Positions 751 to 6,978 of a stretch of 47,473 nucleotides of DNA are shown here, in pieces. The position numbers were made by a program, and so were the translations under genes. The DNA lies in contig JAIPKD010000017.1 in the NCBI GenBank assembly GCA_021733835.1, positions 1-47,473 of the forward strand. Direction: 5' to 3'. Below the pieces are notes generated by a model that was not told where the DNA came from, did no database searches, and worked only from the letters and a program-made list of their open reading frames with translations. The DNA comes from Verrucomicrobiota bacterium (GTDB lineage: Bacteria; Verrucomicrobiota; Verrucomicrobiia; Limisphaerales; JAIPKD01). The stretch's first letter is position 1, and each line of letters opens with the position of its first letter.

Positions 751-1173
751 GTGGTGACAGTCTGGATGAGCTTACCCGGCATCGAACGGTGGGGAGTTGG
801 CATTCACCAGAAGAGCGTCACGCGTTCCTTGGCTGCTTGGGGCGTAGAGGACGCGCGGATTACCAACGACTCGTCAGCTATCCATGCGGCTGAGATGGTC
901 GGGTATATCAGTTCCTACTATGTGCCGGGTCCAGGATACCGCGGCCCGCTGGAAGTTGAGGCTGCGTTGGAGAGGCAGCGTCGCGAGAGCATCGAGCGCA
1001 TTGTTGCATCATTGGAGCGATACACCGGCCTCAATTATGGCACGAACGTGGAGCGATGGACTGAGTGGGCAGAAGAGCGAAAAAGCAGCGAACCAGACGG
1101 TGCAGCGAATCGGAGCCAGCCGATTCGCGCTGAGACAAATCGAACGTCAGTGACGGCTGTCTCCGATCGCTGA
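751..1173 (+). pseudogene. Fragment of a HEAT-repeat-like protein ending in an attC-like site
   Basis: The frame opens with GTG at 751 without a clear ribosome site and begins mid-fold. Residues 95-110 (YTGLNYGTNVERWTEW) resemble the C-terminal motif of HEAT-repeat type proteins common in Verrucomicrobia and Planctomycetes, where a phrase like 'TGxxFGtdxxxWxxW' closes the domain. The N-terminal part of such a protein is absent, so this is probably the tail of a gene truncated just upstream, where the toxin-antitoxin pair ends 15 bases away. The last roughly 28 codons lie inside the palindromic attC-like site and are not expected to be protein-conserved. Function is unknown. Confidence 0.5.
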
Positions 1174-1187
1174 CCTTTACGTTCGGT
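1088..1187 (+). other. attC-like integron recombination site
   Basis: Two nested imperfect inverted repeats span about 100 bases. The outer arms are GCGAAC (1088-1093) and GTTCGG (1181-1186). The inner arms are 1099-1115 and 1161-1175, which pair along almost their whole length but with single unpaired bases on the left arm, near 1102 and 1108. Unpaired (extrahelical) bases in one arm are the hallmark of folded attC sites. The central part carries a further hairpin (GCGAATCGG at 1105-1113 with CCGATTCGC at 1120-1128). In one frame the site encodes a peptide of the form NQTVQRIGASRFALRQ, a tail seen at the ends of many unrelated environmental bacterial ORFs. No integrase gene is in the window. 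The R boxes deviate from the textbook GTTRRRY, so this is attC-like, not proven. Confidence 0.65.
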
Positions 1188-1201
1188 GCTGTAGCACGTT
1201 C

Positions 1202-1441
1202 ATGCATATGGACTACACAAAGAAACAGGGACAGTACTTGGCATTCATCTATTATTACACGAAGCTCAACCGGCGTGCGCCAGCTGAGGCGGATATTCAG
1301 CGATACTTTCAAGTATCGCCGCCGTCGGTTCATCAGATGATTGTGACGCTGGAATGCCAGGGATTGATTTCCAGAGTTCCGGGTCAGGGGCGATCGATTT
1401 CGTTGCGATTGACTAGAGATCAATTACCGGATTTGGAATAA
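1202..1441 (+). CDS. LexA-type winged-helix DNA-binding protein
   Basis: This 79-residue protein consists only of a DNA-binding domain like the N-terminus of LexA: an N-terminal helix (QGQYLAFIYYYTKLNRRAPA), the AEADIQRYFQVSPPSVHQMI helix-turn-helix with the typical SPPSVHQM recognition helix, and a wing region around ISRVPGQGRSISL. The LexA protease domain is absent, so it cannot self-cleave. It may be a stand-alone regulator. Two ATGs (1202 and 1208) are in frame. It starts 15 bases after the attC-like site, the position of a cassette gene, and small LexA-like HTH proteins are frequent passengers of such sites. Target genes are unknown. Confidence 0.75.
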   Translation: MHMDYTKKQGQYLAFIYYYTKLNRRAPAEADIQRYFQVSPPSVHQMIVTLECQGLISRVPGQGRSISLRLTRDQLPDLE

Positions 1442-1770: not shown

Positions 1771-4404
1771 GTGATGCTGGCGTTTGGCAGAAAGAAATCG
1801 TTTATGGCACGAATCACGGGAACTCTATTGATTGCGCTCAACTTTGTCACACTGGCTAGCGCGGGGGATCTAAGACAGGAATTCATCGAGCCACCTCTGG
1901 AATATGCCACCCGCCCTCTGTGGTTCTGGAACAACACCACTGTCACCAAGGAGGGTGTCGTAAAACAGATGCGGGAGGCCCGCGACCGGTGCGGCTACGG
2001 GGGGTTGGGAATTCTGCCGTTCGGCAAGAACTTCAAACCCACCTACCTCACCGAAGACTACTTCAAGGTCTACGGCGTGGCCCTGGAAACCGCCAAAGAA
2101 CTGGGCATGACCATGTGTCTCTACGACGAGTATGGATTCCCGAGCGGAAGCGCTGGAGCCATCCACGGCGACGGCGTACGGCGGTTTGCGGACAGGCACC
2201 CGGGGCACACAATCAAACGGCTCGACAAATTCGAGCAGAAAGTGAGCGGCCCGGCCGACTGGTCCCAGGAGATCCCCCCGGGTCGCCTGATGAGCGTCGT
2301 GGCCATGAATATGGACAGCAGGGAACGGGTTGACCTGTCGGGCCGGGTCAAGAACGGCCGAGTCGCCTGGCAGGTGCCCGAGGGGACCTGGAAGATTATG
2401 ACCTTTGTTTGCGTGACGGACGGCGATCCCAACGTGGACTACCTGGAACCGGAATCGGTAAAGTGCTTCGTCGAGATGACGCACCAGCAGTATTACAACC
2501 GCTTCAAGGACTACTTCGGCAGCACTATCGACGGTGCATTTTTCGACGAACCGACGATGTATCGAGCCAAAGGCCGGATGTGGACCGGGGCGTTCAACGG
2601 GAAGTTCAAGGAAAAGTACGGCTTCGACCCGGCACCGTACTACCCCGCGTTGTGGTACGACATCGGCCCGGAAACCCAGGCGGCCCGCAATTACCTGTTC
2701 GGGTTCCGGACGGAGCTATATGCGACAGCCTTTCCCAAGGTAATCCAGGATTGGTGCATGAAGCACGGCATCTCAGCCACCGGGCACCAGGATCAAGAAG
2801 AAGTGGTCAACCCGGTCAGCGTGTCCGGCGACCTTATGAAATGCTTCAAATACCTGGACATTCCGGGGGTGGACAAGATCGGCGGCAGGCGGCCTGCCGA
2901 ACGGTTCTACAAAATAATCAGTTCCGCGGCCTACAACTGGGACAAGGCCTTGGTCATGTCGGAAACCTACGGGGCCATGGGCGACATCGGCTGGGACACG
3001 ATTTACCATGTGGCCATGGAGCAGTACACCAAGGGCATCAACCAGCTAATTCCCCACGCTGTCTGGTACGACGATAAACAGGTTAAGTTCAGGCCGGAAC
3101 TTTCCTGGCGGAACAAGAAGTATGCGGACGGACTGCCGCAATATAAAAAATACATGAGCCGGCTGAATCTGATGCTGCAGAATCACGGTCGGCATATCGC
3201 AGACATCGCCGTGCTTTACCCGATAGCCACCCTGCAGGCCGGTCACTATCTGGACGGCAAACTGGGGTCTTACAGGGGTGGCGTAACTATTCCCGAAGCG
3301 GACTATGTGGATATCGGAGAATATTTGGCAACGCAAATCGGCCGTGACTACACCTTCCTGCATCCGGAAGTTCTGGACGAGAAGTGTGCCGTAGACGGGC
3401 ATACGCTTCGAATGAGCAACCCCGTCAATTTCGAAAACTACAAAGTGATGATCGTTCCGGGACACAAGACGATCAACTGGAGCAATCTGAAGAAGATCAA
3501 AGAATTTTATGATAGCGGCGGAAAGGTGATTGCCACCGGGACTTTGCCTTGCAAGTCTGCTGAATTCGGGTACGACGAGGACATCGTAGAAGCGATTGAT
3601 GCCCTGTTCCCCGGGGCACGGAAACATACCTCAAAAGGCGGGACCATCACCGCATCCAGTTCCTGGCCGGGGTACGGCCCAGAGCTGGTTGCCGACGGTT
3701 CCATGGAAACCCGATGGAATGCCCGGGACGGCACTGGGGGGGATCAGTGGCTAGAGATTGATTTCGACAAGGAGAAAACCTTCCAGTGGGTTGAAATCAG
3801 CGAGGTGTTCGACCGGGTGAATTCCTACAGTGTGCAGGTTCTTCAAAACGGCGACTGGGTGGACTGTGCGGGTGGCACGACACTCGGGCACAAGGTGCAT
3901 ACCTTTAAACCGGTCACCTCAACCGCTCTCCGCTTGTATATTCACGGTATCAAATCGGACAGCGCTTCAATTGCCGAATTGCATGTAGGCTCAGGCTCCA
4001 AGAGGAAACCGCTCATCTTCAACCGGAATAAACAAGGCGGCATGACGGCCTTTCTAAGGAGGCCTACGGCAAAAAATCTGCGCGAGACACTTGACCGCAT
4101 GCTCGATGTCTATGATGTGGAATTCGAAGTCGGCAAAGAGCTTCGCTACATCCACAAGGTCATAAACGGAAAGGAAATCTATCTTTTTGCCAATCTGTGC
4201 AAAACAACGATTGACACCTGGGTGGAACTCAGAGGCAAACTGTCCCCGGAATCCTGGGATCCTCATACGGGAGATATTTCAAAGGCTGAGTTTTCGCATG
4301 AGAAAAGGGGGTTGGCCGATGTTACCAAAGTGAAGATCGAGTTGCCGCCGACTCAATCATTATTTATTATCGCCGAACAAACGAATCCATCTGACAAGAA
4401 ATAG
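1771..4404 (+). CDS. GH106-like glycoside hydrolase (alpha-L-rhamnosidase type) with F5/8C domain
   Basis: This secreted 877-residue protein probably removes terminal rhamnose or a related sugar from plant or algal polysaccharide. After a signal peptide (ending near ASA, residue 31) it has the GH106-type start PLWFWNN (residues 49-55), a region GGLGILPFG and the strongly typical YDEYGFPSGSAG (118-129). Residues 623-740 form a discoidin-like (F5/8 type C) carbohydrate-binding domain, with DGSMETRWNARDG. ORF coordinates start at GTG 1771; ATG 1804 (MARITGTLL) gives a cleaner signal peptide and may be the true start. It stands alone, between two copies of a small mobile repeat. The exact substrate cannot be read from the sequence, and GH106-like proteins vary in specificity. 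Confidence 0.8.
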   Translation: MMLAFGRKKSFMARITGTLLIALNFVTLASAGDLRQEFIEPPLEYATRPLWFWNNTTVTKEGVVKQMREARDRCGYGGLGILPFGKNFKPTYLTEDYFKVYGVALETAKELGMTMCLYDEYGFPSGSAGAIHGDGVRRFADRHPGHTIKRLDKFEQKVSGPADWSQEIPPGRLMSVVAMNMDSRERVDLSGRVKNGRVAWQVPEGTWKIMTFVCVTDGDPNVDYLEPESVKCFVEMTHQQYYNRFKDYFGSTIDGAFFDEPTMYRAKGRMWTGAFNGKFKEKYGFDPAPYYPALWYDIGPETQAARNYLFGFRTELYATAFPKVIQDWCMKHGISATGHQDQEEVVNPVSVSGDLMKCFKYLDIPGVDKIGGRRPAERFYKIISSAAYNWDKALVMSETYGAMGDIGWDTIYHVAMEQYTKGINQLIPHAVWYDDKQVKFRPELSWRNKKYADGLPQYKKYMSRLNLMLQNHGRHIADIAVLYPIATLQAGHYLDGKLGSYRGGVTIPEADYVDIGEYLATQIGRDYTFLHPEVLDEKCAVDGHTLRMSNPVNFENYKVMIVPGHKTINWSNLKKIKEFYDSGGKVIATGTLPCKSAEFGYDEDIVEAIDALFPGARKHTSKGGTITASSSWPGYGPELVADGSMETRWNARDGTGGDQWLEIDFDKEKTFQWVEISEVFDRVNSYSVQVLQNGDWVDCAGGTTLGHKVHTFKPVTSTALRLYIHGIKSDSASIAELHVGSGSKRKPLIFNRNKQGGMTAFLRRPTAKNLRETLDRMLDVYDVEFEVGKELRYIHKVINGKEIYLFANLCKTTIDTWVELRGKLSPESWDPHTGDISKAEFSHEKRGLADVTKVKIELPPTQSLFIIAEQTNPSDKK

Positions 4405-4467
4405 CTGCGCCATTTCTTGCAGGTGATTCAAGCGTTCGGCACGGGAGAATCATGGCTTGTGGATTGG

Positions 4468-4583
4468 GGTCACGTCTTAACATTTAACATTTATTATTGC
4501 ATAATTATCTTTAAAAATCAACGGATGGTTTTAATAAAAGACCATTGAATCACTGAGATAAATTAAGCCCACATTCCTGATTT
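4468..4583. mobile_element. MITE-like element, truncated copy
   Basis: This is a direct repeat of the 1595-1736 element. It has the same left 23-bp arm (4468-4490) and nearly identical interior, with scattered substitutions, but similarity stops after CCTGATTT near 4583 and the right inverted repeat is missing. What follows instead is a short segment with a terminator-like hairpin and then a group II intron. The shared flank GGATTGGG just before both copies suggests the repeat unit may extend a few bases further left. Confidence 0.8.
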
Positions 4584-4594
4584 TAAACTAAAAG

Positions 4595-4640
4595 AAACAC
4601 CGAGTGCGGAAGTGAATTTACGGACGGCTCGGTGTTTTTT
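4595..4640 (+). terminator. Rho-independent terminator-like hairpin
   Basis: The stem AAACACCGAG (4595-4604) pairs with CTCGGTGTTT (4629-4638), with a loop of about 24 bases and a run of seven T starting in the right arm and ending at 4640-4641. It lies downstream of the plus-strand glycosidase gene and could end its transcript. Its distance of about 190 bases from the stop, with a mobile repeat in between, suggests it may belong to older sequence displaced by insertions. The large loop weakens the call. Confidence 0.6.
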
Positions 4641-5248
4641 TATCACGGAGTGTACGGAATCATATATTTATTTAACCACGGAACACACGTCGCGACAGGA
4701 AAGCCCGGAGTACCGGGAAACATGGAACCGTATAACATGAAGAAAGGTACACTGATACCCGGCGGGCAATCACTCCCGCCCGGCAGAGGCTGGCCACCAG
4801 CCGGAAACGAACATTGCGTCGTCGTACCGCAAGGGCGGCACGAAGCGTATGGAGTAGGTACTGAAGCCGTGATGATAGAACCTCGAAAATTCGATGATTG
4901 TCAGGGTCCTGCTGATCGTGTTAGGCGGGACAGCACCGGTATGCCTGTTTTGGCTATGGGCATATCGGCCGGATCGGGGTCTGAGAGCAGGGCAGAGGTG
5001 CATGTGGGTATCCCGGGAACCTGTGAGAGCCTGCCGTTTCCTGAAGAGACTCGGAATGGGGTGAAACCGAGTGACCAACATCCCGGCCCGCAATCGAACC
5101 TTCCTCGAACTGCGGGAGCGAACATTGAGAAGGAATCAGGGTGCCGTTGCTCAAGTCTGAGGCAAGAGTGGCGGGAGGAAACGGCAGGCAGTCTTAGTCG
5201 GTTCATAGTAGCGAATGAAAGCAGGGAAACTCTTCTTGGGAGGAGCCT

Positions 5249-6637
5249 GTGAGTAGCCAAGGAACACGACTGAAATATAACAGTGCAACTGGCCGACACG
5301 GGGCGGAGAAACGGCCGCTGACAAGCGTGAGAACGAGGCAGGAGCACATTGCACACATAGCGAGGAAGTATACGGACAGTCCTCTGACCACACTGAGTTA
5401 CCATATGGATATGCTGTGGATGCGAGAAGCATTCGCCGGTTTGCGGAAAGACGCATCTCCCGGAGTAGATGGGACAACGGTGGACGAATATGCGATGGAT
5501 CTTGAGGCCAATCTGGCGGATCTGCTGGAACGGGCCAAGAGCGGTCGATATCGCCCCCCGCCAGTGAAACGGGGATACGTGCCGAAAGGCGAACACGAAT
5601 CGCGCCTTATAGGCATACCAACAACGGAAAACAAAGTGTTGGAAAGAGCCGTGGCGATGCTGTTGGAGCCACTCTATGAATGCGACTTCATGGAGAGTTC
5701 ATACGGTTTTCGCCCGCACCGTTCACCCCATCAGGCATTGGAAGCCCTGCGAGGCAGCCTGAAGGAAATGAAGGGTGGCTGGGTGCTGGATGTTGATATT
5801 CGGAAATTTTTCGACAGCATCCCGCATTGCCAATTGATGGAGATTCTTCGCTTGCGAGTGAAAGACTCAGTCATACTGCGCCTGGCAGCCAAATGGCTGC
5901 GGGCCGGAGTGATGGAAGACGGAGGCATGCGCTTCAGTGACGAAGGCACGCCGCAAGGGGGTGTTGTATCCCCATTGCTTAGCAACATCTACTTGCACCA
6001 TGTGCTGGATGGATGGTTTGAAACGATGATTAAACCTCGGTTGAGAGGGCCGGCCCAACTCATTCGGTTTGCCGATGATTTTGTAATGGTCTTCAAACGC
6101 CTCGACGATGCACAACGGGTATTCGATGTGCTTCCGAAACGGTTTGAGAAATACGGTCTGGCCATTCATCCGGGAAAAACGAAACTGGTGGACTTTCGCC
6201 ATCCTTGGGATAGCGGAAAGAAACCTGATACCTTCACGTTCCTTGGATTTACCCATTACTGGGGGAAGACGAGGAAAGGCGGGTATTCGGTGAAGAAGAA
6301 AACCTCATCGAAGAAAATGCGTCAGAAGTTGAAGGATATGCATCAGTGGTGCAAGAAGAATCGTCACAGACCTCTTGAGTGGCAACACTCAAAGATCTGT
6401 CAGAAACTGTTGGGACATTATGCTTTCTATGGAGTTACCGGGAATTTCGCTTCCATTGCGATCTTCCGCTACAAGGTGCTGTATACCTGGCGATACTGGC
6501 TCAACAGACGATCTCGGAAGAGAGACGGTATGGAATGGGACAGGTTCAGGATGTTGTTGGCCAGCAAGTTCCAGATTCCTCCACCGCGCATTGTCCATGG
6601 CGCTACCGGGTGTATGCAGACAGGCTGGAGCTTTTAG
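5249..6637 (+). CDS. ltrA: Group II intron reverse transcriptase/maturase
   Basis: This 462-residue protein helps splice its host intron and copies it into new DNA sites. It shows RT motifs in order: PGVDGTTVDEYAMD near residue 70, RYRPPPVKRGYVPKGE, the SYGFRPHRSPHQAL motif, DIRKFFDSIPH, the TPQGGVVSPLLSNIYL motif (about 234-249) and the catalytic FADD (274-277; most relatives have YADD). A maturase (X) region follows, including GHYAFYGVTGN and the WLNRRS tail. There is no HNH endonuclease domain at the C-terminus, so it is an En-minus type that probably uses nascent replication-fork DNA. The GTG start is preceded closely by GGGAGGAG (5238-5245). Domain V follows the stop by 17 bases. The ORF is intact. 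Confidence 0.95.
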   Translation: MSSQGTRLKYNSATGRHGAEKRPLTSVRTRQEHIAHIARKYTDSPLTTLSYHMDMLWMREAFAGLRKDASPGVDGTTVDEYAMDLEANLADLLERAKSGRYRPPPVKRGYVPKGEHESRLIGIPTTENKVLERAVAMLLEPLYECDFMESSYGFRPHRSPHQALEALRGSLKEMKGGWVLDVDIRKFFDSIPHCQLMEILRLRVKDSVILRLAAKWLRAGVMEDGGMRFSDEGTPQGGVVSPLLSNIYLHHVLDGWFETMIKPRLRGPAQLIRFADDFVMVFKRLDDAQRVFDVLPKRFEKYGLAIHPGKTKLVDFRHPWDSGKKPDTFTFLGFTHYWGKTRKGGYSVKKKTSSKKMRQKLKDMHQWCKKNRHRPLEWQHSKICQKLLGHYAFYGVTGNFASIAIFRYKVLYTWRYWLNRRSRKRDGMEWDRFRMLLASKFQIPPPRIVHGATGCMQTGWSF

Positions 6638-6653
6638 CATGTGTGTATTTCAA

Positions 6654-6688
6654 GGAACCGGATGCATTAATTGTGCTTGTCCGGGTCT
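6654..6688 (+). ncRNA. Group II intron 1 domain V
   Basis: This 35-base segment starts GGAACCGGATGCATTAATTG and ends CTTGTCCGGGTCT. It folds into the small two-part hairpin typical of group II intron domain V, the catalytic centre that binds the two metal ions. The outer stem pairs GAACCGGA with TCCGGGTC, and the inner stem pairs GC with GC around an AUUAAUU loop. It sits directly before the domain VI hairpin, as required. Confidence 0.75.
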
Positions 6689-6732
6689 GTGGGGGTGCCT
6701 CTCGGGCAACCGGAGGCACTACCCGGAAAAAC

Positions 6733-6978
6733 GTGGATTTTGAATCAGGAAAAAAGGGGTTTCTGATTTGAGGAATAATGTAGTTGCGGGGCAAGAGTTG
6801 TGGGAATCCACCCCAGCTTTTCTGGGGAGGGGAACGGATGTGTGTTTTTCAAAGCCGGTGCAATCACGGAAGGTATGCTCTTTATGAATGAAAGTGTTTG
6901 CAAAGCATTGAAATATTTGTTAAGTGACCCAACAATAAACCAAGTAAGAGAGAAATGTAAAAAACAAGGAGTGTCGAG
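6733..6978. other. Short intergenic stretch after the intron
   Basis: There are two hairpins: AATCAG (6743-6748) with CTGATT (6763-6768), just after the intron, and CCCCAGC/CTGGGG around 6813-6829. No convincing gene is present; a 60-codon frame (6800-6982) reads into the next start and lacks any recognisable feature. AAGGAG at 6965-6970 is the ribosome site of the next gene. Confidence 0.5.

Follow-up and report, generated by a model that had tools for sequence, protein, structure and literature searches.

The imperfect palindrome at positions 1086–1189 of the window (47,473 nucleotides, one whole contig, C62, of a Verrucomicrobiota MAG) is very probably an integron attC site that forms part of a degraded cassette cluster without an integrase (CALIN). 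The data show the fold, membership of an attC family, the linkage of that family to the integron integrase (IntI) in relatives, the cassette boundary at GTT and the covariation of the stem; that an IntI has acted on this copy in the past, and that the cluster has since become inactive, we infer.

Sequence and fold of the palindrome

The textbook attC site is an imperfect palindrome bounded by an inverse core (RYYYAAC) and a core (GTTRRRY). The following elements correspond to it in the window:

1086–1189, + strand: attC site 1, assigned by its covariance-model score (103.1 bits), its fold and 93% identity to the attC site at L140:10928
1087–1093, + strand: R'' box of site 1, AGCGAAC
1181–1187, + strand: R' box of site 1, GTTCGGT

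The initial annotation had described an imperfect palindrome of about 100 bases with unpaired bases on one arm only, which is indeed present, with a true start (1086) two bases further 5' than had been given. Two extrahelical bases, G1102 and A1109, lie six bases apart on the same arm; on the bottom strand they appear as C and T in the arrangement T-N6-C, between cores AAC...GTT. The T-N6-G/C spacing is the arrangement found in attC sites that are efficiently excised by IntI1 (PMC3053210). The fold is more stable than those of 200 out of 200 shuffled sequences on either strand (z -4.2 and -4.7), and the crossover is expected between G1181 and T1182. The description of the R boxes as divergent was half right: AAC and GTT themselves are retained between 1087 and 1187, and it is the base beside them that is relaxed here, as in most family members, being frequently G or C in the family instead of the Y or R of RYYYAAC and GTTRRRY.

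The identification as an attC site, proposed earlier from the fold, was borne out by a covariance model (R2). Trained on 50 further sites under a stated structure, and without the copy in the window, this model matched site 1 with an E-value of 1.9e-30 (E-values of the models built here are rough, and nearly all genomes compared are MAGs). R2 replaced a model whose structure had been chosen by RNAalifold (R1), which contained only 11 pairs and misaligned R''.

A second attC site and the state of the cluster

The palindrome had been regarded as an orphan, which proved incorrect: a second site lies 3.2 kb away, and there are three more in the genome.

4371–4442, + strand: attC site 2
4371–4378, + strand: R'' box of site 2, CGCCGAAC
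4434–4440, + strand: R' box of site 2, GTTCGGC
1590–1741, + strand: mobile repeat of ~150 bp, lying between sites 1 and 2 and bounded by 28-nt inverted ends

Site 2 has perfectly complementary R boxes and a bottom-strand fold with z -5.5; its extrahelical bases, C4387 and A4394, read T-N6-G in the bottom-strand sequence. It scores 34.8 bits with R2, being detected only with the filters off, and 43.6 bits (rough E-value 2.2e-9) with a broader model, R3; its sequence encodes the final 11 codons of a GH106-like ORF. The three further sites are found on contigs C13, C46 and C30, and in two of these sites the R' box has decayed; the 2.84-Mb MAG (91.9% complete, 114 contigs) thus contains five attC sites in total. 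The initial annotation had recommended looking for an IntI-type integrase elsewhere in the genome; our search of this 91.9%-complete MAG with the integron integrase profile TIGR02249 (cut-off 265 bits) identified none above the cut-off, the best partial matches scoring 80 and 77 bits, and hence no IntI was found to adjoin the array.

A CALIN is reportedly, following Cury and coworkers in 2016, a cluster of attC sites that lacks an integrase. In IntegronFinder 2.0 the minimum is two attC sites (PMC9024848), and 1086–1189 together with 4371–4442 reach this number without an IntI, within the limits set by the nearby contig end (site 1 lies ~1.1 kb from the contig start) and the 92% completeness. 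The region also carries mobile insertions. The repeat between the two sites, whose inverted ends read GGGGTCACGTCTTAACATTTAACAT..., has a second copy at 4460–4583 (94% identical, right end truncated); a few further contigs of this genome carry fragments of the repeat, which looks like a MITE or REP-type element. Downstream of site 2 there is a group II intron (~4604–6770; Rfam group-II-D1D4-6 at 4770–4989) with a maturase/reverse transcriptase at 5249–6634 (TIGR04416, 326 bits) and a possible 5' start, GTGCG, near 4604.

The attC sites of this genome are dispersed over four contigs, mostly singly, and no IntI was detected, a picture which would also fit a trans-acting integrase that placed single cassettes at secondary (attG-type) positions of the chromosome, instead of the remains of an array once present at this locus; such insertion is a described process (Loot et al. 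2024, as cited in PMC11023631). We regard this as a minority possibility, given that two same-direction attC sites and at least two other cassette-type remnants occur within 4.4 kb of one contig, and that this contig begins 1.1 kb before site 1, so that other parts of an array could lie beyond it. Somewhat less probable again is a complete integron in the living organism, with an IntI that was lost in assembly or binning: the MAG is incomplete and fragmented (91.9%, 114 contigs), on each of C62 and C13 an attC site occurs close to the contig start, and the authors of IntegronFinder 2.0 point out that integrons in draft assemblies are broken up by repeats (PMC9024848), but the whole 2.8 Mb yielded just five attC sites, the R' box being decayed in two, and the repeat and the intron inserted between and beside attC sites suggest decay. 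For the CALIN that we favour, the integrase may have been lost, may lie beyond the contig end, or may have acted from elsewhere.

The attC family and its integrases in the order

BLAST searches with the palindrome revealed matches in 14 of 58 relatives from the order, apparently Limisphaerales/Pedosphaerales, plus one further copy in the same genome, and an exact 21-mer of the 3' arm occurs in 70 stretches of named contigs, mostly labelled Verrucomicrobiota, several of which hold two copies, always on the same strand. The consensus of the window-type attC is GCCGAACCAGACGGTCCAGCGAACGGGAGCCAGCCGATTCGCTCAGAGACAAATCGAACGTCATCGGCGGCTGGCTCCCGTCGCTGACCTTTGCGTTAGGC. With R2 we found members in at least 134 of 313 genomes and at least 76 of 118 genera of the order, both figures being lower bounds because 12 candidates per genome were scored. 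A lack of further copies with the same fold, which the initial annotation had named as evidence against its own reading, is thus not what the order presents.

The loops of attC sites are usually variable. The apical part (~35 nt) of the window-type attC is similar in many genera. Window-type sites were also seen in five stretches from MAGs labelled Deltaproteobacteria, Nitrospirae/Nitrospira, Planctomycetota and Kuenenia; these occurrences outside Verrucomicrobiota-labelled MAGs could reflect either cross-phylum transfer of cassettes or binning errors.

Because the 50 sites behind R2 were picked by a fixed 21-mer and cannot, by construction, reveal covariation in the stem, we assembled a second, diverse set of 35 sites, with apical loops swapped for TTTT and the structure stated by us. 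In this set 90% of cells are paired, the covariation score is 0.477 and double changes number 147, compared with at most 0.11 and at most 48, respectively, in a control where the partner was slid by 1–3 columns; what is conserved in these sites is pairing rather than sequence.

IntI above the curated TIGR02249 cut-off was identified in 99 of 320 genomes of the order and in 0 of 14 control genomes. Nine contigs carry both IntI and a member of the attC family, in divergent orientation in all nine cases and at a spacing of 1.0–2.1 kb; divergent IntI and attC at a short distance are the textbook layout of an integron. One relative (L140, G251:C24:97000–115000) possesses an intact integron, with IntI (447 bits) followed by an array of same-strand attC sites that includes the one 93% identical to site 1. 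Beside its single IntI this array mixes attC sites of several unrelated sequence types, which indicates that the type of attC goes with the cassette and not with the host.

Cassette boundary, upstream gene and recurring peptide

751–1173, + strand: 5'-truncated cassette gene, with a conserved part at 762–1086 and a 3' end read from the attC

Alignment of window positions 762–1183 with a homologous locus in another MAG (L077, JACQHI010000476) gave 78% identity over the gene and the whole palindrome, and the homology ends exactly at GTT (1183), i.e. at a cassette boundary. This is the right boundary, the only one that the window itself shows; relatives supply more. In their arrays we compared R'' and R' boxes by scoring four variable bases: where the cassette is no longer than 700 bp, R'' agrees at 4/4 bases with the R' that opens the same cassette in 23 of 31 cases (mean 3.65), whereas it agrees at 4/4 with the R' of its own site in only 6 of 31 (mean 2.68), and the maximum mean in 5000 random draws was 2.84. 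Such agreement characterizes circular cassettes that have been joined at G|TT. The signal disappears for cassettes above 700 bp, most simply because intervening sites would be missing among the matches listed.

As first described, a truncated gene precedes the palindrome and has its end encoded there, the ORF 751–1173 entering and terminating in it. Searches of Pfam and NCBIfam with this ORF returned no matches. Mismatches to the homologous locus are distributed over the codon positions as 13/8/44, which argues for constraint at the protein level in this frame. In the two genomes the gene enters the attC in different frames and thereby acquires unrelated tails. The peptide NQTVQRIGASRFALRQ (NQTVQR...) is encoded in another ORF (884–1153), in a frame other than that of the conserved gene, and ORFs run into attC sites in all three frames (17, 52 and 29 sites). 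With three frames in use and one gene entering the attC in different frames, we conclude that the peptide is an attC read by chance, in agreement with the earlier proposal that it is an attC translation and not a protein domain; copies that always lie inside genes with conserved amino acids, the other contrary observation named at the outset, are not seen. Peptides like NQTVQRTGASRFAQR at protein ends in this order therefore represent chance translation of attC and do not warrant annotation as a domain.

That ORFs enter the palindrome and a peptide recurs might hint at a conserved C-terminal domain or a transcription terminator instead of a recombination site, but the use of all frames, conservation of base pairing up to GTT and the absence of a T-run after the palindrome leave these readings practically no credibility. 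Equally negligible is an origin as the hairpin terminus of some other mobile element (REP/MITE or IS): such elements can yield dispersed imperfect palindromes, but same-strand arrays with one gene between sites, an adjoining IntI and neighbouring sites that have exchanged R boxes are specific to integrons.

Neighbouring genes

236–442, + strand: antitoxin-like gene (Unstab_antitox, PF09720, E-value 1.2e-12)
439–735, + strand: RelE/ParE-like toxin gene, partner of the antitoxin (weak PF05016 match, E-value 0.12)
735–758, + strand: candidate 5' half of a broken attC, recognized by eye (R'' GGCCAAC at 736–742, then AAGTCGCTGG)
1202–1441, + strand: winged-helix (LexA/DtxR-type) DNA-binding protein of 79 aa, the first ORF after site 1
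1771–4404, + strand: GH106-like glycoside hydrolase with an F5/8 C domain (PF17132, E-value 5.6e-37; PF00754, E-value 2.5e-14), ending inside attC site 2

The toxin-antitoxin pair is probably the remnant of a cassette. Related toxin genes have an attC directly 3' in 4 of 29 loci, and in the window the stop codon of the toxin is followed by GGCCAACAAGTCGCTGG, which by eye resembles half an attC; neither R2 nor R3 gave a match at 735–758. GTTGGCC at 188–194 could be the left boundary that matches R'' at 736–742. A left-hand attC for the pair at 120–195 was supported by neither model.

The small helix-turn-helix gene reported right after the palindrome is confirmed as the winged-helix ORF, which starts 18 bases past GTT (1181–1183) and matches PF01726 with 24.0 bits (cut-off 23.7) and PF01325 with 28.2 bits (cut-off 26). 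Its status as an established cassette gene was not supported: the covariance models found no attC 3' of it at 1441–1770, and none lies within 1.5 kb of its LexA-like relatives at 14 loci in 13 other genomes of the order. Likewise, no attC was found near 17 loci related to the GH106-like gene, which we rejected as a recurrent cassette gene. Neither gene is thus a demonstrated usual cassette gene. Capture of the whole 3.25-kb segment 1182–4434, DNA-binding protein and full-length GH106-type glycoside hydrolase included, as a single very large cassette seems unlikely to us; if it happened, the integrons of this order would be able to mobilize enzymes that degrade polysaccharides, and the order-wide attC family, with its conserved apical loop of ~35 nt, would be a VCR-like exchange currency that genera have in common.

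Proposed history and relation to known integrons

While single-stranded, the bottom strand of site 1 should form a hairpin from which two extrahelical bases protrude, and an IntI tyrosine recombinase would bind this hairpin and cut at G|TT (1181/1182), whereby the upstream gene with its attC would be joined or released as a circle. The cluster would comprise the two same-direction attC sites (1086–1189 and 4371–4442), the truncated cassette gene and the probable toxin-antitoxin remnant, and would subsequently have been disrupted by the mobile repeat and the group II intron. Several points speak against this explanation: the genome lacks a detected IntI, the next complete attC is 3.2 kb off, some genes in between are atypical of cassettes, and the R boxes deviate from strict RYYYAAC/GTTRRRY at one position.

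With the attC sites of known gene cassettes (VCR, attCaadA1 and others) the window sites share the imperfect hairpin, the AAC/GTT cores, an upstream cassette gene, two extrahelical bases on one side at 6-nt spacing and the G|TT crossover boundary; they differ in that the core-adjacent base is often G or C, and the window-type subfamily retains a similar apical loop over many genera of one order. Two same-strand sites in a genome without detected IntI are shared with CALINs, but here 3.2 kb separates the sites, a stretch that holds a large enzyme gene and a mobile repeat, and a contig end is nearby. Verrucomicrobiota have already been listed as carrying integrons (The Natural History of Integrons, PMC8618304), and complete IntI and attC arrays occur in the relatives studied here, unlike in the genome of the window. 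The locus therefore adds a well-documented case to a known kind and is not a new system.

Our analysis documents that integrons are abundant in an order of uncultured Verrucomicrobiota, and supplies a structure-based model of its attC sites.
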